DNA from: Aestuariivita sp.
GTDB lineage: Bacteria > Pseudomonadota > Alphaproteobacteria > Rhodobacterales > Rhodobacteraceae
NCBI GenBank assembly: GCA_018401465.1
Contig: JAGYKE010000004.1
Coordinates: 372,001 to 436,000 of the forward strand
Reading direction: 5' to 3'
Length of the DNA: 64,000 nt
The first letter of the stretch is position 1. Each line of letters opens with the position of its first letter. The notes under the pieces are model-generated. The model worked only from the letters and a program-made list of their open reading frames with translations, searched no databases and was not told the origin of the DNA. Shown here piece by piece: positions 2,869 through 16,959 of this stretch. A program made the translations under genes and the position numbers.

Positions 2869-4152
2869 TCAGTTGCAGCGCGGGGCGATGTTGTTCTCGG
2901 CGGCATAGGCGGCCGAGTCAGCCTCGATCAGGGCGTTGATGACGTCCTGGTCAGTCGACTTGAAGTCCGAGACGAGCGACCAGGTCTTCGCGGTCGCGTC
3001 CCACTGGACGACGCCGACCAGGCCGTCACCACCGTGGTTTTCGCAGGTGGCCGTGAAGGTCGGGCCGAAGTTCGGCAGGCCGAGTGCGGCCATCCGCTCT
3101 TCCGTCATGTTCAGCGCCTCGAGACCGTCGCGCATCATCGCCGGGGTGATGTCGGCCACGCCGTGGATGCGCTGGGCTTCCCGTGCGCCTTCGGCCGCCA
3201 GCATCGCGGCGTACATGCCACGGTTGTAAAGCACCGAACCCACCTGGTCGCCCGCGCCCGCGGCCTTGCCGGTGGCGACGACGTACTTCTGGATGTCCTC
3301 GTAGATCGGGAAGTCGGAACCGACATTGTGGAAGGTCAGCGCCTTGTAGCCGTTGGCACCATCGCCCGCGGGCATCACGTCATGTTCGCCGCCCGACCAC
3401 CAGATGCCGATGAAGTTCTCCATCGGGAAGCGGATGTTGGCGGCTTCCTGGATGGCGACCTGGTTCATCACGCCCCAGCCCCACATCAGCACATAGTCGG
3501 GGCGCTGCTGACGGATCTGCAGCCACTGCGACTTCTGTTCCTGGCCGGGGCTGTCGACCGCCAGCAGTAGCAGTTCGAACCCGTGCTTCGCGGCCAGCGC
3601 TTCCAGCGTGGGGATCGGTTCCTTGCCATAGGCCGAGTTGTGATAGACCAGCGCGACCTTCTTGCCCGAGATATCGTTGCTGTTGATCTCAAGCAGATAG
3701 TTCACCGCGCCCGAGGCACCGTCCCAGTAGTTGGCGGGATAGTTGAAGGTGTGGCTGAACACCTTGCCGTTCTTGGCCGAGGTCCGGCCATAGCCCAGCG
3801 TGTGCATCGGGATATTGTCGGCGGTGGTGCGCGGGATCAGCTGATAGGTGATCCCCGTCGACAGCGGCTGATAGACGAGCGAGCCTTCGTTCTTCGTCGC
3901 CTCATAGCACTCGACGCCACGCTCGGTGTTGTAGGCGGTCTCGCATTCGATCACGCGCGTCATCACGCCGCCGATGCCGCCGTCGCGTTCGTTGAGCAGC
4001 GTGAAGTAATCGGCATAGCCGTCGGCGAAGGGGATGCCGCCCGCGGCGAAGGGCCCGGTGCGATAGCTCAGCGACGGGAACACGAGGTCCGCCATCGCGG
4101 GGCCCGCCGCCATCAGCGCGGTCAGGGCCATCGTGGTCAGTTTCATCTTCAT
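2869..4152 (-). CDS. LivK-type periplasmic substrate-binding protein
   Basis: 427-residue periplasmic binding protein of the leucine/amide-binding family (Peripla_BP_6 type). Residues 1-21 form a Sec signal peptide (MKMKLTTMALTALMAAGPAMA), with cleavage likely after AMA. The mature part has the two-lobe pattern, with 'VALVYHNSAYGKEP' opening the first lobe strand set and 'VSDFKSTDQDVI' near the end. The ligand cannot be read from sequence; the two ligases in the operon point to a carboxylate (aromatic or fatty acid) rather than an amino acid. The 80-base gap before it and its central position allow higher expression than its neighbours. Confidence 0.85.
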   Translation of the reverse strand: MKMKLTTMALTALMAAGPAMADLVFPSLSYRTGPFAAGGIPFADGYADYFTLLNERDGGIGGVMTRVIECETAYNTERGVECYEATKNEGSLVYQPLSTGITYQLIPRTTADNIPMHTLGYGRTSAKNGKVFSHTFNYPANYWDGASGAVNYLLEINSNDISGKKVALVYHNSAYGKEPIPTLEALAAKHGFELLLLAVDSPGQEQKSQWLQIRQQRPDYVLMWGWGVMNQVAIQEAANIRFPMENFIGIWWSGGEHDVMPAGDGANGYKALTFHNVGSDFPIYEDIQKYVVATGKAAGAGDQVGSVLYNRGMYAAMLAAEGAREAQRIHGVADITPAMMRDGLEALNMTEERMAALGLPNFGPTFTATCENHGGDGLVGVVQWDATAKTWSLVSDFKSTDQDVINALIEADSAAYAAENNIAPRCN

Positions 4153-7696: not shown

Positions 7697-9663
7697 TCCG
7701 CCGCCATCCTCTGCGGCGCGCCCGTGACCGCGGCACGGCGGATTTCCAGCGTCGCGCTGATGTATCCCTTGCGCCCGTCCTCGTACGTCACTTCCGTCCG
7801 GGTCGAGACCTTGTCCGACCCGTCATACAGCGCGGCGATGATATCGGCGAATTTCTCTTCGATGATGCGGCGGCGCACCTTGCGGGTGCGGGTCAGTTCG
7901 CCGTCATCGGCGTCGAGTTCCTTGTGCAGGATGACAAAGCGGTGCACCTGACAGCCGGACAGCATATCGTCCGCCGCGACCGACCGGTTCACCTCTTCCA
8001 CATGGGACTGGATCGCCTGCATCACCTGCGGATGCGCCGCCAGTTCCTGATACGAGGAATAGGAGATGTTGTTGCGCTCGGCCCAGTATCCCACCGCCGT
8101 CAGGTCGATGTTGATGAAGGCCACGCATTCGTCGCGGCCGTTGCCGAACAGCACGGCCTCAAGGATGTTGGGGAAGAACTTGAGCTTGTTCTCCACATAT
8201 TTGGGCGCAAACATCCGGCCGTCGGCCATCTTGCCGACATCTTTGGCGCGGTCGATGATCCGCAGATGCCCGGTATCGGGTTCGATGAAGCCCGCGTCGC
8301 CCGTCGCCACCCAGCCTTCGGTATCCTTGGTCGACGCGGTCGATTCGGCGTTCTTGTAGTATTCGACGAAAACACCGGGGCTGCGGTAATAGACCTCGCC
8401 CGTGTCCGAGATGCGGATTTCCACTTCGGGGCATTGCACGCCCACGGTGTCCGAACGCACCTCGCCGTCGGGCTGGGCGGTGATGAAGACCGTGGCTTCG
8501 GTCTGGCCATAAAGCTGCTTCAGGTTGATGCCCAGCGCGCGGTAGAAATCGAAGATTTCCGGCCCGATCGCCTCGCCCGCTGTATAGCCGACGCGCACGC
8601 GGCTAAACCCCAGCGAATTCTTCAGCGGCCCATAGACGAAAAGGTTGCCCAGCCAGTATTTGAACCGGTCGCCACTGCTGACCGGCTTGCCGTCCAGAAT
8701 GGCGGGGCCCACCTTGCGCGCATGCGCCATGAAGCGGTCGAAGAGCCATTTCTTCAGCCGCCCAGCATCCTCCATCCGGATCATGACGTTGGTCAGCTGC
8801 GTCTCGAAGACCCGCGGCGGCGCGAAGAAATAGGTCGGCCCGATCTCGCGCAGGTCAGTCAGCATCGTGACTTCGCTTTCGGGGCAGTTCACGCAGAACC
8901 CGGCCCAGTAGGCCTGCCCGATCGAGAAGATGAAATCGCCCACCCAGGCCATCGGCAGGTAGGACAGGATATCCTCGCCCGAGGTCAGGCGGTCGAATTC
9001 GCAGGAATTCTTCGAGGTCAGGATGACGTTGCGGTTCGAGAGGACCACGCCCTTGGGCTTGCCCGTCGTGCCGCTGGTATACAGCATCACGCAGGTGCTG
9101 TCATAGTCCAGCGCCTCGCGCCGGCGCTTGAGTTCGGGCAGGAATTCCTCGCGCGCCGCGCGGCCCTGTTCCTGAACGTGAGAAAACTGGTGCAGGCGGC
9201 TGTGGTCGTATTTCCGCAGCCCCCGCGCATCAAGATAGATCATGTGTTCGAACTGGTGCAGGCGGCCCTGCACCTCGATCACCTTGTCGACCTGTTCCTG
9301 ATCCGCCGCGATGACGAAGCGTGCGCCGCAATGTTCCAGCACATAGGCCATCTCTTCCGCGACCGCGTCCTGATAGACGGGCACGGGCACTGCGCCCACT
9401 GACTGGATCGCCACCATCGACCAATACATGGCAGGCCGGTTGCGCCCGATGATCGCAACGAAATCCCCCTGCTTGAGGCCAAGGTTGATAAGCCCCAGCG
9501 CAAGCGCCTCGATCTCGGCCTCGGTCTGGGCCCAGGTCCAGCTTTGCCAGATACCCAGTTCCTTTTCCCGATAAGCGGGTCTGTCGCCGAATTGCGTCGC
9601 ATTACGATGCAGCAGGGCCGGAAGGGACTGATGCCCACCGGCGCCGGAAGTGGTCGCGGCCAA
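7693..9663 (-). CDS. Long-chain acyl-CoA synthetase (AMP-binding, FadD15-like)
   Basis: 656-residue ANL-family ligase and first gene of the operon. It has the canonical P-loop 'YTSGTTGKPKG' (about residue 200), the 'YGQTEAT' A5 motif, 'TGDAGFIEPD' A7 and 'DRAKDV' A8 hinge. The length and the 'KFFPNILEAVLFG' segment match the long-chain/bubblegum-type synthetase group. The start is a TTG at 9663, supported by GGAGGAG seven bases upstream; no good ATG lies nearby. Together with the PaaK-like ligase at the operon end it suggests import plus CoA activation of organic acids. Confidence 0.82.
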   Translation of the reverse strand: MAATTSGAGGHQSLPALLHRNATQFGDRPAYREKELGIWQSWTWAQTEAEIEALALGLINLGLKQGDFVAIIGRNRPAMYWSMVAIQSVGAVPVPVYQDAVAEEMAYVLEHCGARFVIAADQEQVDKVIEVQGRLHQFEHMIYLDARGLRKYDHSRLHQFSHVQEQGRAAREEFLPELKRRREALDYDSTCVMLYTSGTTGKPKGVVLSNRNVILTSKNSCEFDRLTSGEDILSYLPMAWVGDFIFSIGQAYWAGFCVNCPESEVTMLTDLREIGPTYFFAPPRVFETQLTNVMIRMEDAGRLKKWLFDRFMAHARKVGPAILDGKPVSSGDRFKYWLGNLFVYGPLKNSLGFSRVRVGYTAGEAIGPEIFDFYRALGINLKQLYGQTEATVFITAQPDGEVRSDTVGVQCPEVEIRISDTGEVYYRSPGVFVEYYKNAESTASTKDTEGWVATGDAGFIEPDTGHLRIIDRAKDVGKMADGRMFAPKYVENKLKFFPNILEAVLFGNGRDECVAFINIDLTAVGYWAERNNISYSSYQELAAHPQVMQAIQSHVEEVNRSVAADDMLSGCQVHRFVILHKELDADDGELTRTRKVRRRIIEEKFADIIAALYDGSDKVSTRTEVTYEDGRKGYISATLEIRRAAVTGAPQRMAAE

Positions 9664-9869
9664 TGTCTTTCTCCTCCCTTGACCGGGGGCGTGACGAACC
9701 CCAGGTGCAGGCCACCCGGTCGGTTCCGACGCATCATGGCCAGCGCGCAGACTGGGAGCGAACCTTTGCCTGATGTTTTCGCAATTCTAACGAATTGTAA
9801 CGGCGCGGTCAGTGAGGACTTTCCCGCGCGACGGCCGGGTGCTAGCGATGGAACCCCGGGGGGAGATGC
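9664..9869. promoter_or_regulatory. Divergent promoter region with TAACG direct repeat and palindrome
   Basis: Spacer between the transporter operon (minus) and the hybrid kinase gene (plus). CAATTC-TAAC-GAATTG (9782-9797) is a perfect palindrome, and TAACG occurs at 9788-9792 and 9798-9802, exactly one helical turn apart. Tandem 10-bp repeats are typical of OmpR-family regulator sites, so the downstream response regulator is a plausible binder. Confidence 0.4.
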
Positions 9870-11774
9870 ATGGACCGGACCGATACCGACACGCGCGATT
9901 TCACGACCGCAGGCCTGAACCTCATCGCACAGGCCCTGTCGATCTATGACCGTGACCTGCGGCTGTCGGTCTGCAACCGGCCCTTCCAGACGATGTTCGA
10001 CCTGCCACCCGACCTCGTCACCCCCGGCGCCCGGTTCGAGGACACGATCCGCCACCTTGTGGGCAAGGGTGAATACGGGTCGGTCGACGACCCCGAAACC
10101 TTCGTGCGCACCCGCGTCGATCAGGCCCGCGCCTTCCAGCCCCATTACATGGAGCGCACCCGGTCCAACGGGCGCACGATCAGCGTCGAAGGATCGCCCC
10201 TGCCACAGGGCGGCTGGGTCACCGTCTATACCGACATCACTCGCACCAAGCGGTCCGAGTCGCTGCTGCGTGCCCGGTCCGAGGAACTCTCGGACCAGCT
10301 TCTCACCCATGCCGAGGACCTGTCCGCCACCAACCGCGAACTGGCGGCCACCATCACCGCGCTGGAAGAGACCAAGCGCCAGCTCACCGAGGCAGAGGCC
10401 CGCACCCGCCTGACCGCCGAGATGATGCCCGCCCACCTCGCACACGTGGACGCAGCCGGGTTCTACACCTATTCCAACCGGCGGCTGGGCACCATCATCC
10501 CCTATCGCGGCGCCGACCTGCCCGGGCGCCACATCCGCGAGGTGCTGGGCGAGGCGATCCACGACCGCATCACGCCGTCGCTGAACCGCGCCTATGCGGG
10601 CGAAGCCTCGGTCTTCGAATTCACCGACCGCTCCAGCGCCCGGCGCATCCGCACCGCCTTTACCCCCGACGGGCGGGGCGGCGTCTATATCCTGTCGATG
10701 GACATCACCCAGGAAACCCAGACCCGCGTCGCGCTGCAGCAGACCCGTCGGCGCGCGCTGGCCGCGCAGATGGTCAACGGGCTTGCCCATGACTTCGCCA
10801 ACCTTCTCACCATCATCCTTGGCCTGCAGTCGCGGCTCGAACGCACCGGGCTGAGCGAAGACCAGTCCGACCTCGTCAAGGCGACGGTGGCGGCGGCGCG
10901 GCGCGGCGGCGGGCTTCTCAACCGGATCGGCGACATGACGGGCCACCGCACCTATCGCGCGCGGTCGACCGACCTGCACGCGCTGTTGCAGGACATGCGC
11001 CTGCTCGCCACGCCCACCCTGCCGCCGACCCTCGGTCTGTCGGTGGTCGACACCACGCCCGACACGGCGCTGATGCTCGATGCCGGCATGCTGCAGGACG
11101 CGCTTCTGAACCTGATCCTGAACGCGCGCGACGCCTGCGGCACATCGGGCCAGATCACCATCGCCGCCCATGCCATCGACGACGTGTGGATCGACATTTC
11201 GGTCACCGATACCGGGCCCGGGTTTTCCGACGCAGCACTCGATCAGGCGCTCAACCCCTTCTTCACGACGAAGGGCGGCAAGGGGTCGGGACTGGGCCTG
11301 CCCATGGTCTATGACATGGTGAAACTCGCCGGCGGCGATCTGCGGCTGTCCAACACCGCCACGGGTGCCTGCGTGACGCTGCGCCTGCCGTGGCGCGCCG
11401 CACCCGCGCAGACGGCAGGGGGCCTTGCCCTTCTGGTCGAGGATGACGACACCCTGCGCGCCGATATCCGCGACATGCTGGTCAGTCTGGACTATTCGGT
11501 GGTCGAGGCCGCCTCGGTCGACGAGGCCATCGCGCTCACCGCCGATCTTCCGGGGATCGCGCTGGTCCTGTCGGACCTGCGGCTGGAAGGCGACGGCACC
11601 GGCATCGACCTCGCCGACCGGCTGGGGCAGGGCGGGCTGCCGCTCATCCTGATGACGTCGCTGCCGCCGGACGACCCGCTGCACCGCGCCGCGCAGGCGC
11701 GCGCGCCGGTGCTGAGCAAACCGTTCCGCGCCGACGACCTTGCCCGCCTGCTGCGCCCCGAGGCCGCCGCATGA
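9870..11774 (+). CDS. PAS-containing hybrid sensor histidine kinase
   Basis: 634-residue soluble hybrid kinase. A first PAS-like domain (about 15-125, 'ALSIYDRDLRLSVCNRPF') is followed by a coiled coil (about 128-180), a second PAS (about 183-280), a HisKA with phospho-acceptor His307 in 'NGLAHDFANLLTIILG', and a HATPase with N-box 'NLILNARDACG' and G-boxes 'DTGPGFSD' and 'GSGLGLPMV'. A C-terminal receiver (about 517-630) has Asp524-526, Asp569 in 'VLSDLRL' and Lys in 'LSKPF'. There are no membrane segments, so it senses a cytoplasmic signal. It overlaps the response regulator gene by 4 bases and is divergent from the transporter operon, which suggests control of that operon. Confidence 0.88.
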   Translation: MDRTDTDTRDFTTAGLNLIAQALSIYDRDLRLSVCNRPFQTMFDLPPDLVTPGARFEDTIRHLVGKGEYGSVDDPETFVRTRVDQARAFQPHYMERTRSNGRTISVEGSPLPQGGWVTVYTDITRTKRSESLLRARSEELSDQLLTHAEDLSATNRELAATITALEETKRQLTEAEARTRLTAEMMPAHLAHVDAAGFYTYSNRRLGTIIPYRGADLPGRHIREVLGEAIHDRITPSLNRAYAGEASVFEFTDRSSARRIRTAFTPDGRGGVYILSMDITQETQTRVALQQTRRRALAAQMVNGLAHDFANLLTIILGLQSRLERTGLSEDQSDLVKATVAAARRGGGLLNRIGDMTGHRTYRARSTDLHALLQDMRLLATPTLPPTLGLSVVDTTPDTALMLDAGMLQDALLNLILNARDACGTSGQITIAAHAIDDVWIDISVTDTGPGFSDAALDQALNPFFTTKGGKGSGLGLPMVYDMVKLAGGDLRLSNTATGACVTLRLPWRAAPAQTAGGLALLVEDDDTLRADIRDMLVSLDYSVVEAASVDEAIALTADLPGIALVLSDLRLEGDGTGIDLADRLGQGGLPLILMTSLPPDDPLHRAAQARAPVLSKPFRADDLARLLRPEAAA

Positions 11775-12475
11775 CCGCGCCGCTGGTCAGCATCCTCGAC
11801 GACGAACCGGCGATCCGGCAGATGCTGACCGAAGCATTGGCCGAGGCGGGCTTCCGCACGCAATCCTTCGGGCGGGCCCGGGAATTCGAGGCCTCGCTCA
11901 ACCGCGCGGTGCCCGATGTCTGCCTCGTGGACCTGTCGCTGCCCGACACCGACGGGCTGGCGCTGGTGCACCGCCTGGCGCTGGAACGCGGGGCGGTGGT
12001 CATCATCATCTCGGGGCGGGGGCAGGTGCAGGACCGGGTGACGGGGCTGGAACTCGGTGCCGATGACTACATCACCAAACCCTTCGACCCGGCCGAAGTG
12101 GTCGCCCGCGTCCGCGCCCGGCTGCGCGCCGCGCCGCGCGGGGCGGTGCAGGGCGGTGACCGCGCGCGCTTCAACGGCTGGACCGCGCATTTCGACCGCT
12201 ACGCGCTGGAAGACCCCGACGGGGCCGAGACCCCCTTCAGCCATGCCGAGGGCGAGGTGCTGCGCCTCTTCCTCGAAAGCCCGCGCCGTCTGATCACCCG
12301 CCAGCAGATGCAGGAAGCCTTCGGCGGCGCGGCCGGCGAAAGCTTCGACCGCGCGATGGACGTCCGCATCTCGCGGCTGCGGACGAAACTGAGGGAAGAC
12401 CCGAAGAACCCCCGCCTGATCAAGACGATCTACGGGGCGGGGTATATCTTTCTCGGGGATGTGAGCTGGGGATAG
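11771..12475 (+). CDS. OmpR-family response regulator
   Basis: 234-residue regulator. The receiver has the acidic pair 'LDDEP', phospho-acceptor Asp54 in 'CLVDLSLPD', Thr/Ser in 'IIISGRG' and Lys in 'YITKPFDP'. A winged-helix Trans_reg_C domain follows at about residues 135-230 ('DRAMDVRISRLRTKL', ending 'IKTIYGAGYIF'). Its ATG overlaps the kinase stop, making a cognate pair with a phosphorelay (His307 and Asp569 of the kinase). A likely target is the divergent spacer at 9664-9869, which has a TAACG repeat. Confidence 0.88.
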   Translation: MTAPLVSILDDEPAIRQMLTEALAEAGFRTQSFGRAREFEASLNRAVPDVCLVDLSLPDTDGLALVHRLALERGAVVIIISGRGQVQDRVTGLELGADDYITKPFDPAEVVARVRARLRAAPRGAVQGGDRARFNGWTAHFDRYALEDPDGAETPFSHAEGEVLRLFLESPRRLITRQQMQEAFGGAAGESFDRAMDVRISRLRTKLREDPKNPRLIKTIYGAGYIFLGDVSWG

Positions 12476-12560
12476 CGTCCCACGATGGGACGCCTTCTCG
12501 GGTGAGGAATATCAAGGGGTTACAGGGGCGGATTCAGGGGTTGTTAAGGTTTGCCAAGCT

Positions 12561-13481
12561 TCAAAGCCTGACGGGCGGATCAAAGTTTCCCTGACCGAAC
12601 CGGTTTTCACGATGCCACTTGAGGTTCTCGGGATGGGGCAAGTCGCTCTGGTTCCTTGGACGGATCAGTTCCTGATTAGGCAGGATAAGCCGGTCAACGA
12701 CATCCTTCGGAACCTTGTTGTGCGACACCAATATCCGATAGCTTTCGGGATCGACCGCTATCAGACCCCGGTCGAACATCCAGTGCAAAGTTCCGGACAG
12801 GGCCAGCCCGTTGCGCACCGAGTCGCTGCCTGAGGCTTCGACCGGGCGGATATGCGCGGCCTGAACCTCGGGCCTGCCGCCACCATTTCGCAGTTCCAGT
12901 CCCGAGATCGCGCACCGATAGCCATAGGCTTCGCGGACACGCCTTCGGAAAGCGACGTCGCGATAGGGTCGGCGCGTCAGTCTTTCGAGAACGGGACGTT
13001 CCAATATAGTTGCTGGTTCGTAGGCGTAGGGATCTTGTGCGCTGTAGCGCCGTTCTTCGATCTCTTCTAGGTCTTGGGGCAAGCCTAGGTTCACGATGCG
13101 CGCGAAATCCGCGTCGGGCAGCCTGCGCACGGCCAGTTGCTGAAGGCCGCCTTTTTTCGGCGCACCGGTTTCATCCCGCAACTGGGTTTCCAGCGGACGC
13201 CCATCGAGAAGTCTGGGCACCTCGCTATCGAAGGGAAGGAAGGTTCCCGGTTCGATCAAGGCCAGATACCGCCCTTCCACGCCCGGCTTGGGAATGACCT
13301 GCTGAACCTTCGCGACCGCGAAGTAGCCGCGCGGCCCTGCCTTCACGGGTTCATAATAGACGATCCAGTCCCCGACGGCCTGACGCACGGCGTCAAGGTA
13401 GGTCTTGGGGAAATCGTACTTCGCGTCAGGCTCGTCGTCGTAAATCGAGTCCGCACGGTGCAGAAAGACAGCTTTACCCAT
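12561..13481 (-). CDS. HNH endonuclease (COG3440-like predicted restriction enzyme)
   Basis: 306-residue protein. The C-terminal half contains an HNH_2-type nuclease core, 'YRCAISGLELRNG' followed by 'EVQAAHIRPVEASGSDSVRNG' residues in two parts and 'LALSGTLHWMFDRG' (about residues 185-240), with His-rich metal and catalytic positions present. The N-terminal ~110 residues ('AVFLHRADSIYDDEP', 'DWIVYYEPVKAGPRGYFAVAKV') form a separate domain of the beta-barrel type seen in predicted modified-DNA restriction enzymes. No methylase or other defence gene is adjacent. Substrate and role are unknown. Confidence 0.75.
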   Translation of the reverse strand: MGKAVFLHRADSIYDDEPDAKYDFPKTYLDAVRQAVGDWIVYYEPVKAGPRGYFAVAKVQQVIPKPGVEGRYLALIEPGTFLPFDSEVPRLLDGRPLETQLRDETGAPKKGGLQQLAVRRLPDADFARIVNLGLPQDLEEIEERRYSAQDPYAYEPATILERPVLERLTRRPYRDVAFRRRVREAYGYRCAISGLELRNGGGRPEVQAAHIRPVEASGSDSVRNGLALSGTLHWMFDRGLIAVDPESYRILVSHNKVPKDVVDRLILPNQELIRPRNQSDLPHPENLKWHRENRFGQGNFDPPVRL

Positions 13482-13505
13482 GGTCGGAGAAAACCGCAGG
13501 TTGCG

Positions 13506-13850
13506 CGATCACGCAAGCATCCCGTCAGGCAGTCAGTCTCCCCACCCCCTCCGCCAGCACCCTGACCCCCGCCACGAGGTCCGCCTCGTCCGTGTCCTCG
13601 TCGAAGGCATGGCTGATGCCGCCGATGGAGGGCACGAACAGCATCGCGACCGGCATGAGCCGCGCGACATTCGTGGCATCGTGGAGCGCACCTGAGAGCA
13701 GGTGGCGCCAGCGGCCCGGGCTGACGGCCTCAGACCAGGACTCGAGCGTGGCGCGCAAGGTAGGGACCATCGCCACGGGGTCGAGGCCCGGCATCGGGCC
13801 GAAGTCGACCGACAGGCCGCGGTCGTCGCCGATCTTCGCCAGCCTTGGCG
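13506..13850 (-). pseudogene. Truncated duplicate of M20-type amidohydrolase 3' end
   Basis: A fragment corresponding to the last ~105 codons of the intact hydrolase at 15604-16788. Shared peptide runs include '[20 protein letters not shown]' and '[13 protein letters not shown]', but upstream of '[19 protein letters not shown]' the reading frame diverges into unrelated sequence and the metal-binding N-terminal half is missing. The repeat also includes ~19 bases beyond the stop codon (offset to the second copy 2079 bases). The first ~110 bases are almost identical between copies and similarity falls further in. An open frame continues to 13971, but the extra ~40 codons have no hydrolase features. 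Confidence 0.8.
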
Positions 13851-14031
13851 GCCAATACGGGGTTGGCTTTGCATGCCTGTTCACAGCGCAATCAGCCGAA
13901 AGACCTTTGATAGACCCGAACCCAGGGGGGAGATTTGCGCTTGGGGACAGTATTGCCGCATTCACCGGCACAGGCCGTTGACAGCCGCAGGATGGGGCCT
14001 CTAATGGCGCAAAATCTCAGAGAATAGACCC

Positions 14032-15213
14032 ATGAAGAAAACATTCACGCGGCGCGGCTTTTTGCAGACCTCGGCAGTTTTGCCCGCAACCTTCGGACTG
14101 CCGGGCAGCATCGGCGAGGCGGGTGCTGCAACCCCAGAAGTTCGCACCATCGTGCCGCCCCGCCTTGAAGGCGCCTATCTCGGCGAAAGGATATTGTGCC
14201 ACCGACCGATGCGCCGTGGTTCCCCGAACCTGAGCATCCGGCAGGACGGCAGCCGGACAATCGCGCATAACTATGGCCACGGCGGAAGTGGCTGGACCCT
14301 TGCGCCGGGGTCGGCAAACTATGTCGTGGGCCTTGCCGAGGAGGCCTTGCAGTCCGGTGAAGGCAGCAGATCCGAACCGGTCGTCGTGCTTGGTGCCGGC
14401 GTCATCGGCCTGTTTACGGCCTTCGAACTCGTGCAGCGTGGCTTCAGTGATGTGACGGTCATCGCCGATCGCTTCGAGTCACTGACCTCGCACAATGCTG
14501 GCGGGCTATTGGCCCCCGTCTCGATGGACAACGAACCAGAGATGCAGGTCATCATCGATCGCATCGGGGTCGATGCCTACCGCTTCTACGCCAGGGTGGC
14601 GCGGGGCGAGCTTGCGGAGTTCAAGGGCGGGGCCGTGATCGTGCCGACCTACTTTGAAGACCGCAGCGAGTCTGGCCTTGAACCCTATGTCGGGGTCGTG
14701 ATGCAACCGGCGAAGGATGTTGTGCTCGATTTCGGCAACGGTACCCAGCGGCCGATGGTGGCCTATGACGACGGCATCTTCATCGACACGGCCGTCATGA
14801 TGCAGGCGCTCACGGATGTCCTGCAGAACCGTATCCGGTTCGAGAAGAAGAAGATCGGCAGCTTTGACGAGCTGTCAGCCAACCTGATTTTCGACTGTAC
14901 AGGCCTTGGCGCGGGCGCCCTGAACAATGACCCCGACATGGTCTCGGTTCAGGGACATCTCATCATGCTGAAGGATCAGATGCCGCAGGACCTGCAATAC
15001 ATGATCCTTGTCTACTTCGGCGAAGACAAGACCGACGCGGGCCAGAAGGTGAAGCGGTCATTCTACCAGTTCCCCAAACACATGCCCAACACAGGCGTGA
15101 ATGACATTGGGGTCGTCGGCGGCACGTTCATCGAAGGCGCAACCATCAACACGCCGAACGTGAAGGAGTTCGACATTCTGATCGCGGGCGCCAAACGGTT
15201 CTACGGGCTGTAA
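14032..15213 (+). CDS. Tat-exported FAD oxidoreductase, D-amino-acid-oxidase-like, permuted
   Basis: 393-residue protein with a twin-arginine signal (MKKTFTRRGFLQTSAVLP; RRGFLQ) and a predicted periplasmic location. The DAO-type FAD fold is shown by 'VVLGAGVIGLFTAFEL' (about 122-137), 'NAGGLLAPVSMD' and 'DCTGLGAGAL'. The motif 'HNYGHGGSGWTLAPG', normally near the C-terminus of D-amino acid oxidases, here lies at about residues 80-95, before the dinucleotide fold, so the substrate-side segment is moved to the front. Length and the final 'DILIAGAKRFYGL' fit a complete protein. Base composition is less GC-rich than the neighbours, and it lies between two copies of a hydrolase fragment, suggesting acquisition. 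Substrate unknown. Confidence 0.78.
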   Translation: MKKTFTRRGFLQTSAVLPATFGLPGSIGEAGAATPEVRTIVPPRLEGAYLGERILCHRPMRRGSPNLSIRQDGSRTIAHNYGHGGSGWTLAPGSANYVVGLAEEALQSGEGSRSEPVVVLGAGVIGLFTAFELVQRGFSDVTVIADRFESLTSHNAGGLLAPVSMDNEPEMQVIIDRIGVDAYRFYARVARGELAEFKGGAVIVPTYFEDRSESGLEPYVGVVMQPAKDVVLDFGNGTQRPMVAYDDGIFIDTAVMMQALTDVLQNRIRFEKKKIGSFDELSANLIFDCTGLGAGALNNDPDMVSVQGHLIMLKDQMPQDLQYMILVYFGEDKTDAGQKVKRSFYQFPKHMPNTGVNDIGVVGGTFIEGATINTPNVKEFDILIAGAKRFYGL

Positions 15214-15584
15214 CGCGACGGGCGGGACGCAGGACCGGAAATGAGGATGGTCGGGCTGTCGGCGAAGGCGTCGACCTGAACAGCGGTTCCGTCCCAAAGC
15301 ACCCGCACCAGTCCGGGCCCGATACAGACCCAAGTCAGCTCACGTCGTGACGTGCTTGCCGCGCTTTTGACCTGGCCGGGGTTTGGCCCGACTTTCGGCA
15401 GCGATATCTGCGGCGACCGTTGACGACGATGTATCGACCCTGCGGGGTCCTTCGACCTGTGCGTTCGAACAGCCGATCTGTTCCGTGTTCGTCGATCCAA
15501 ATCGCTGCTTTCTGGACATGTTCGTCCTTGATCGATGCGCTTGCCTCCAAAAGGTTCGTCTGCAGGTCTCCAAGTCCTGTCATC
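15214..15584. other. Unassigned insert segment between oxidase gene and repeat
   Basis: About 370 bases with no recognised gene. On the minus strand an open frame (stop at 15335) reads 'KDEHVQKAAIWIDEHGTDRL' and 'GRYIVVNGRRRYRC'. A second minus frame from about 15340 to 15201 reads 'GLVRVLWDGTAVQVDAFAD'. The two could be remains of one frameshifted gene, since both look protein-like, but I recognise no family. Composition resembles the oxidase insert more than the flanking genes. Confidence 0.3.
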
Positions 15585-15929
15585 CGATCACGCAAGCATC
15601 CCGTCAGGCAGTCAGTCTCCCCACCGCCTCCGCCAGCACCCTGACCCCCGCCACGAGGTCCGCCTCGTCGGTGTCCTCGTCGAAGGCGTGGCTGATGCCG
15701 CCGATGGAGGGGACGAAGAGCATCGCGACGGGCATCAGGCGGGCGACGTTCGTGGCGTCGTGCAGCGCGCCGGAGGGCAGGTTGCGCCAGCGGCCGGGGC
15801 TGACGGCCTCCGCCCCCACCTCGAGCGCAGCGCGCAGGGCGGGGTCCATCGCGACGGGGTCGAGGCCCAGCATCTGGCCGAATTCGACCGTCAGGCCGCG
15901 TTCCGCCGCAATCTCCTGCGCGGTGTCGC
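15585..15929. repeat. Second copy of the direct repeat (hydrolase 3' end)
   Basis: This stretch matches 13506-13850 in the same orientation, beginning with the identical CGATCACGCAAGCATCCCG and including the stop and last ~105 codons of the hydrolase gene. The two copies bracket 1.7 kb carrying the Tat oxidase gene. Confidence 0.8.
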
Positions 15930-16788
15930 GGATGATCGCCTCCATCCGGTCAAGCCGGTCGATCTCGGCGTCGCGCCACTGCATGGAAAACCGCGCGCGG
16001 CCCGGCACGATGGACGACGCGTTGGGGTGCAGCGTGACGTGCCCGATGGTCCAGACACTGCGCGGCGTGACGACATTGCGGAAGCGGTCGTTGATGGCGG
16101 CGTTGAAGGCCCCCAGCGCCTGGAACGCGTCGCGGCGCAGGTGCATGGGCGTGGTGCCGGCGTGGTTCTGTTGGCCGCCATAGGTGATGCACATGTCGCG
16201 GATGCCCACGATGTCGGTGACGACGCCGATCTGCAGGCCTTCCGCGTCCAGCGTCGGGCCCTGTTCGATGTGCAGTTCGATGAACCCGGTAAAGCGTGAC
16301 GGGTCCACTTGTGCGCCCGCGCGGTCGGCCATCGCGGCGCGCGCCCGCGCGAGCGGAACACCGTCGTGATCGGCCAGCGCATCGGCGCTGTCCTGATCCA
16401 GAAGCCCCGACCAGACCGCGCTGCCGGTGGTGACGCCGAAGCGGCCTTCTTCATCCTGAAACGACACGACGGACACGCCCGGCACCACGCGCGCCACTTC
16501 CAGCGCGGCGATCACGCCCAGCGCGCCGTCAAGCCAGCCGCCTTCGGGCTGGCTGTCGGAATGCGATCCCAGCAGCAGGCCCGGGGGGCCATCGGCCAGC
16601 CCGAACAGGTTGCCCATCGCATCGAAGCGCGGGGTGAGACCCGCGTCGCGCATCCGCCCGGCAAGCCAGTCGCGCGCGGCGATGTCGGCATCGGAATAGG
16701 CGCGGCGCACGACGCCACGGCCGACGCCCGAGGCACCGAAGGTTCGCAGCATGTGAAGGTCGGACAGGAAACGGGAAGGGTTGATCAT
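15604..16788 (-). CDS. M20-type Zn amidohydrolase (allantoate / N-carbamoyl-amino-acid hydrolase family)
   Basis: 394-residue metal-dependent amidohydrolase of the AllC/HyuC group. Di-metal motifs are '[18 protein letters not shown]', 'FQDEEGRFG' (general base Glu), '[10 protein letters not shown]' and '[10 protein letters not shown]' near the C-terminus; the dimerisation-domain motif is '[16 protein letters not shown]'. The ATG at 16788 (MINPSRFL) is preferred because the 22 residues encoded further upstream are low-complexity and non-conserved. The substrate could be allantoate, the one purine-pathway step lacking a gene in the 26-37 kb cluster, or an N-carbamoyl amino acid. Allantoate is an inference from context 9 kb away. 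Confidence 0.78.
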
Positions 16789-16959
16789 GCCGGCCACGCT
16801 GGCAAATCGCGGCGGCGCTGTCCAGACGGCACCGCCGCCGCCATCCCGCATCATCGGGCGCGGACAGGGGCGTCAGCCCGGGCCCTTGAAGGGGCTTTCC
16901 ATCCGGCCCTCTTCGGCCTAGGTCGGGGCGTATCCGGAAACCGAGCAGACGCGCCCGCC

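Follow-up and report, generated by a model that had tools for sequence, protein, structure and literature searches.

Among described enzymes, the closest to the protein studied here are the D-amino-acid oxidases (DAO) and D-aspartate oxidases (DASPO), represented by human and pig DAO, Rasamsonia DAO (7ct4) and human DASPO (6rkf), which have in common with it the elements of the fold, the HNYGHGG and GxGxxG motifs, and the equivalents of Arg283, Gly313 and Tyr228. The protein is encoded at positions 14032 to 15213 of a 64,000-nucleotide stretch of Aestuariivita sp. (assembly GCA_018401465.1, contig JAGYKE010000004.1, positions 372,001 to 436,000), hereafter the window; L and G numbers are our handles for loci and genomes. 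It differs from the DAO/DASPO enzymes in its rotated chain order, with the ~70 residues that end a DAO now at the front, and in having an apparent export signal and a lid that is longer in its clade. Canonical bacterial DAOs also have the RPxR ... HNYGHGGAG ... WGCA block and the Rossmann part in common with it, whereas in them the block stands at the C-terminus, the N-terminus lies at or near the Rossmann strand, and they fall on the opposite side of a well-supported branch. The Rossmann part that binds flavin adenine dinucleotide (FAD) is likewise common to ThiO and other PF01266 enzymes, but the window protein scores 55.6 bits against the ThiO model TIGR02352, the best among the 25 NCBIfam models listed out of 36, far below its cut-off of 250.8 bits; none of the 25 reaches its own cut-off, and structural Z-scores are ~15-16 for ThiO and its like versus 19-20 for DAO/DASPO. 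No naturally permuted D-amino-acid oxidase was seen to be described in the open-access PubMed Central papers that we searched (titles and starts of abstracts; no subscription papers or preprints). Asaia is reported to release proteins that include a D-amino acid oxidase (PMC12502724).

Our study identifies the window protein as a natural circular permutant with the DAO fold. In its 393 residues, the signature HNYGHGGSGWTLAPG (residues 79-93) precedes the GAGVIG of the Rossmann fold (121-126), and HNYGHGG thus occupies residues 79-85 instead of lying near the C-terminus as in the canonical DAO/DASPO order. The original prediction had placed the motif at ~80-95, ahead of a GxGxxG at ~124, and had called the arrangement circularly permuted; the positions agree, and the permutation is borne out by sequence profiles and consistent with the predicted fold. 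We built a hidden Markov model (HMM) of 316 positions from eight canonical-order bacterial DAOs (L103 from the window's class, and L125-L131 from Streptomyces, Streptantibioticus, Nocardia, Tsukamurella, Mycobacterium and Burkholderia), with E-values computed for a nominal 1000 sequences. Model positions 253-314 match residues 43-104 (28.9 bits, independent E-value 3.2e-8), and positions 4-196 match residues 117-316 (51.4 bits, 4.8e-15). When the halves were swapped back in silico and the signal was removed, the two pieces merged into a single match over model positions 4-314 of 316 (86.3 bits), which shows that the DAO fold is circularly permuted here.

Comparisons with proteins of known structure lead to the same order. 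With phmmer against PDB sequences, human DAO (3g3e) aligns in three pieces, residues 49-116 on 275-344, 117-169 on 3-62 and 228-313 on 108-205, which are weak singly (independent E-values 0.66, 0.05 and 0.00027) and together give E 7.9e-14. When only the N-terminal segment was made into a profile (49 sequences), it matched, at E <= 0.01, 17 distinct PDB sequences, all of them D-amino-acid or D-aspartate oxidases and all matched near their C-termini. A whole-family profile (69 sequences) aligns with Rasamsonia DAO as 51-107 on 320-377 (independent E-value 9e-16) and 107-367 on 22-303 (3.9e-30). In the window's own genome, PF01266 yields 58 match rows, and the flavoprotein locus alone has the C-terminal piece (model 289-351 at C3:386128-386328; 23.1 bits, cut-off 27.9) upstream of the N-terminal piece (model 2-172 at C3:386380-386856).

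The same order is found throughout the family. Of the 99 family rows, which include the window protein and come from many phyla, 98 have both halves significant and swapped, the sole exception being L025, whose second half falls below the significance threshold; the earlier suggestion that other Tat-type proteins have this order thus holds on a large scale. The linker between the HMM pieces has a median of 8 residues (range 3-18; 98 family rows), and GxGxxG follows the motif by 33-47 residues in the 99 rows. Signal-free re-ordering gave a median gain of 51.2 bits and raised the median model coverage from 0.77 to 0.97; 84 rows gained more than 10 bits and 15 did not. Random cuts of the trimmed proteins (five per row) gave best scores with a median of 89.9 bits versus a natural median of 86.9, that is, no gain. 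As a control, the eight canonical DAOs (the training set of the HMM) dropped from 398-474 to 203-250 bits when cut mid-chain and swapped. Rotating whole proteins with their signals did not help: the window protein went from 51.4 to 51.3 bits and the family median from 86.9 to 87.5, and the score rose in 35 of the 99 rows. The signal then lies mid-chain and HMMER splits the match.

The original prediction had proposed comparing a predicted structure with DAO, and this comparison yielded a confident model that superposes on the human enzyme. AlphaFold2, given the 69-sequence family alignment, returned a predicted local distance difference test score (pLDDT) of 90.9 and a predicted template-modelling score (pTM) of 0.88, with low pLDDT at residues 1-30. 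Across residues 31-110 the mean pLDDT of ten-residue blocks is 90-98 in the whole chain, whereas residues 36-114 predicted alone have a mean of 69.4 (pTM 0.46), as expected if the N-terminal segment packs on the rest of the protein. In Foldseek searches of the PDB, the best match is human DAO (4qfd, E 9.8e-13), and the top 16 matches are all DAO. VIA-align superposes model residues 115-393 on residues 1-269 of human DAO (4qfd_A; Z 19.8, 2.8 A, 248 aligned), human DASPO (6rkf_A, Z 20.2) being tied with it; identity to solved DAO/DASPO is 19-27% over the aligned part. None of the 50 entries listed by VIA-align covers model residues before 103, which is expected for a rotated chain if, as we assume, the aligner keeps chain order. 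A permuted chain order was seen in no solved structure among the PDB matches listed, which are the top matches only.

Our scan of a genome collection gave at least 395 confirmed relatives among 591 candidate stretches, of which the best 80 were kept; an open reading frame (ORF) with the motif is present in 79 of these. Since the query is itself permuted, the ranking of relatives favours the permuted order. With the canonical L103 as query, 1 of 142 genomes of the class matched, and that match is permuted (G306, as L100). Matches were found in 20 of 398 sampled genomes of the phylum and in 17 of 385 of the class at 1e-15 (among the latter L103 is canonical and L102 partial). One of 292 genomes of the order and one of 295 of the family (the latter searched with the single protein at 1e-10) matched, in both cases the window's own. 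A plasmid search added five distant relatives (Nonomuraea, Niveispirillum, Rhizobium, Bradyrhizobium and Kozakia), and no relatives were found on viral contigs. Together these proteins make up a large bacterial family with permuted DAO order that is apparently undescribed. In one Phycisphaerales bin (L013), two permuted genes lie ~5 kb apart (3047-4042 and 9243-10385), one of them with an RR/lipobox-like signal.

An unrooted maximum-likelihood tree, built from 87 permuted rows and 8 canonical ones with no eukaryotic DAOs among them, places all the permuted rows on one side of a single branch (support 100/98; 100% of 200 bootstrap trees). This split fits one permutation, and most likely the permutation happened once, before the spread through many phyla. 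The window protein belongs to a clade of seven rows (100/100: the window, L007, L008, L009, L010, L011 and L099) with members from Actinomycetota, Bacteroidota and Pseudomonadota, among them bins under the names Actinobacteria, Microbacteriaceae, Chitinophagaceae, Alphaproteobacteria and Betaproteobacteria plus a genome of the window's class, with identities to the window protein of 58-65%. The taxonomic spread speaks for horizontal transfer, and the fact that the gene's G+C is within 0.02 of that of its own locus in five members speaks against contamination. A further clade member from an alphaproteobacterial bin (L012, 4371-5559) has a frame broken at ~4900 and NNYGHGG in place of HNYGHGG.

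Sequence similarity, significant in each of the two parts of the fold, makes the protein a relative of the DAO/DASPO family that departs from the family's chain order, and its identity as an FAD oxidoreductase is well founded. In phmmer alignments, R58 corresponds to R283 of human DAO and is Arg in 98 of 99 permuted rows (His in one), and G85 corresponds to G313 and is Gly in all 99. We take Y345 as the equivalent of Y228; it is Tyr in all six window-clade rows that reach the position, and in the re-ordered alignment its column is Tyr in six of the eight canonical bacterial DAOs. Arg283 and Tyr228 we take to be carboxylate-binding residues, and Gly313 presumably also belongs to the DAO active site; PDB entry titles name Y228 and R283 as engineered positions. 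K341 stands four residues before Y345, and the alignment is loose at the position of Tyr224, presumably the lid tyrosine of mammalian DAO, as the lid is longer here. From the conserved active-site positions we infer that the window protein may have D-amino-acid oxidase activity.

The N-terminus has the appearance of a signal for twin-arginine translocation (Tat): TRRGFLQ with twin Arg at residues 7-8, a hydrophobic stretch and, by eye, an AGA-A site; TatC is encoded in the window's genome. Across the family, a loose RR pattern occurs within the first 50 residues in 84 of 99 rows, a count to be read with the caveat that the starts of long ORFs were chosen so as to keep RR, and 48 of these also have a lipobox-like pattern. 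In the window's clade, RR occurs with a lipobox in L007 and L008 and without it in the window protein and L010. The genes at L009 (7944-9092) and L099 (1474-2652) encode signals with no twin Arg, which is odd for an FAD protein if folding must precede export.

Taken together, we consider it probable that the gene encodes an exported, permuted DAO-fold FAD enzyme working as a D-amino-acid-type oxidase or dehydrogenase. In the permuted chain, a Tat-like signal is followed by what in DAO are the C-terminal strands and helix, including the substrate-carboxylate Arg and the NYGHGG loop; a short linker connects them to the Rossmann FAD site, and the chain stops near DAO residue 269. In the mechanism that we propose, this chain would fold into a DAO-like active site, bind FAD and be exported as a folded FAD protein. 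R58 and Y345 would hold the carboxylate of a D-amino acid or close analogue, hydride would pass from the alpha-carbon to FAD, and the released imino acid would hydrolyse in the periplasm to a 2-oxo acid and ammonia, with either O2 (giving H2O2) or a respiratory carrier as the electron acceptor. In another branch of the family, at four loci from two phyla, a gene for a thiamine-diphosphate enzyme comes next, within 50 bp, after a permuted DAO gene whose product has no evident Tat signal (Mycolicibacterium L018 and Nonomuraea L002 of the Actinomycetota; Rhizobium L004 and Bradyrhizobium L005 of the Alphaproteobacteria). Such enzymes take 2-oxo acids, and their place beside the permuted DAO fits 2-oxo acid production. 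A berberine-bridge-type FAD oxidase is encoded upstream in both Rhizobium and Bradyrhizobium.

It is important to consider the observations that weigh against this reading. The original prediction had called the protein a periplasmic Tat substrate, and this is less firm: the twin Arg, the hydrophobic stretch, the AxA look of the site and the presence of TatC fit it, but the scores of both Tat models are under their curated cut-offs (PF10518, 14.0 bits versus 22.7; TIGR01409, 15.2 versus 16.7). Within the window's clade, the signals of L009 (lipobox, by eye) and L099 (plain Sec-like) have no RR, no signal was seen in L011, and L009 has His at the R58 position. At the Y228 position, the 99 rows have Tyr in 40, Ser in 24 and Asn in 14, and this variability means that substrates may differ over the family. 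The clade also has a longer lid that is conserved there (approximately residues 328-341); with a second short insert at residues 350-356 it flanks Y345, and the printed columns of the two inserts (328, 329, 336-341; 350-356) are gaps in 85-92 of the 99 rows. The isolated N-terminal segment has no significant structural match (best 7ct4 at Foldseek E 0.49; no VIA-align Z >= 2). The stem of the clade is long (2.0), next to L044, and the program warns of long branches, so that the clade's place inside the family is unsure. By eye, no neighbours are common to the clade (six loci), and no pathway is indicated. Finally, the thiamine-diphosphate enzyme gene accompanies four of the seven rows of its branch; it was not seen in the flanks examined at L037 and L066, and the contig of L019 ends too soon.

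It is possible, if in our judgement doubtful, that the window's clade, with the permuted DAO fold as described, is a dehydrogenase whose substrate is not a free D-amino acid (it might be a cyclic or N-substituted amino acid, or an amine bound in a peptide or the cell wall) and which passes electrons to a respiratory carrier. The clade-specific lid beside the active site and the variable Y228 position in the rest of the family favour it, as does a cytochrome c gene directly 3' of the permuted gene in Kozakia L006 (5839-7499) and Altererythrobacter L077 (7992-9625), tree sisters in which it hints at respiratory electron transfer. Matches of an S9 peptidase model to 5 of 65 adjacent genes scanned (103 picked) also count towards it, at least one of them being better explained as a dienelactone hydrolase. 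The window protein itself, however, keeps the equivalents of R283, Y228 and G313, and among the listed ORFs beside its gene neither a cytochrome c nor a thiamine-diphosphate enzyme was seen by eye.

We consider it very improbable that a DAO-like motif arose by chance, or was fused, ahead of an ordinary DAO-type protein that retains its own C-terminus. This would agree with the Pfam DAO match, whose best stretch is residues 117-390, but is refuted by the lack of the second C-terminal segment that it implies: in the structural alignment the chain stops near DAO residue 269, none of the 99 family rows has the motif twice, so that no duplication intermediate was found there, and the N-terminal segment profile, at the threshold given above, matches nothing in the PDB other than the C-termini of DAO and D-aspartate oxidases. 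An assembly or gene-calling artefact or a decayed gene, which the adjoining truncated duplicate of another gene might suggest, is practically negligible and refuted by the homologues, given an intact ORF, the order retained in 98 of 99 rows, and a divergence from relatives (0.22/0.17/0.57 at codon positions 1/2/3 against L008, for example) in which the dominance of third-position changes points to purifying selection.

The features of the gene and its surroundings are collected in Table 1.

Table 1. Positions of the permuted flavoprotein gene, its parts and adjoining genes in the window.
Feature	Position	Strand	Remarks
Permuted DAO-family flavoprotein coding sequence	14032..15213	+	393 aa; ORF list; PF01266 best stretch residues 117-390, E 7.3e-20
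Putative export signal at the N-terminus, residues 1-32	14032..14127	+	Twin Arg 7-8; AGA-A (30-33), likely cut after 32 by eye
Relocated DAO C-terminal segment, residues 43-104	14158..14343	+	Contains R58, G85; canonical DAO HMM model 253-314
DAO signature HNYGHGGSGWTLAPG, residues 79-93	14266..14310	+	Read from sequence and family alignment
Linker from old C-terminal helix to old N-terminal strand, residues 105-116	14344..14379	+	Gap between HMM pieces
DAO N-terminal and middle part, residues 117-393	14380..15210	+	FAD-binding Rossmann fold (GAGVIG 121-126) and substrate domain; HMM model 4-196
Extra lid segment, ~residues 328-341	15013..15054	+	Just before Y345; feature of the window's clade; gaps in most family rows
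Truncated 3' copy of M20 amidohydrolase gene	13506..13845	-	Upstream of flavoprotein gene; alignment and PF01546
HNH_2 endonuclease-like gene	12561..13481	-	Within the same extra stretch; PF13391 3.5e-12
Full-length M20-family amidohydrolase gene	15604..16854	-	Adjoins extra stretch; PF01546 4.7e-16

Late acquisition of the gene in the window's genome is well supported. The single match among the 292 genomes of the order indicates that it was probably acquired here, its G+C is 60.6% versus 66.4% for the window, and no flavoprotein match was found in the same-genus genome G148, which is 73% complete. In the window, the M20 amidohydrolase gene and a response regulator gene (11771-12475) are ~3150 bp apart; their matches are separated by 672 bp in G148, ~470 bp in G002 and ~730 bp in G009. 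An extra stretch of ~2.5 kb within 12475-15604 encloses the HNH_2 gene, the truncated amidohydrolase copy and the flavoprotein gene, which probably came in with it. Positions 13506-13805 are 89% identical to 15585-15884 (300 nt, the 3' end of the amidohydrolase gene), and recombination in this duplicated end was perhaps the route of entry. A relative of the HNH gene (66%) also adjoins the amidohydrolase in G020 (L135).

Other neighbours were noted in the rest of the family. Near the Kozakia gene there are an S15-type hydrolase, a beta-lactamase-family hydrolase and a TonB-dependent receptor. Beta-lactamase-family hydrolases flank five loci (L006, L050, L058, L081 and L084), on either strand and at varied distance, which is a weak hint, and a threonine-aldolase-like gene is found near Dyadobacter genes and in L013. 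HslU/HslV-like neighbours in sphingomonads and cysteine-synthase-like ones in erythrobacters, named by eye, look like lineage synteny and were not used.

For annotation, these results bear on a segment that the libraries tried leave unnamed: Pfam and NCBIfam give a DAO domain from residue 117 onward, and upstream of it a sub-threshold signal match is all that they return. We tentatively suggest, as a possibility that we would not put forward as likely, that a single permutation placed the carboxylate Arg and the signature loop at an exposed N-terminus and freed the start of the Rossmann strand for signals and lipid anchors, making an exported enzyme of a cytosolic or peroxisomal type, and that the window's clade, with its new lid, acts on a substrate new for DAOs. 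A permutation kept across many phyla constitutes a natural experiment in folding, in the loading of FAD before export and in the survival of an active site despite the re-ordering of its parts. If active, these proteins would be exported oxidases of the D-amino-acid type, of interest for the extracytoplasmic turnover of D-amino acids and the cell wall, and for biocatalysis.
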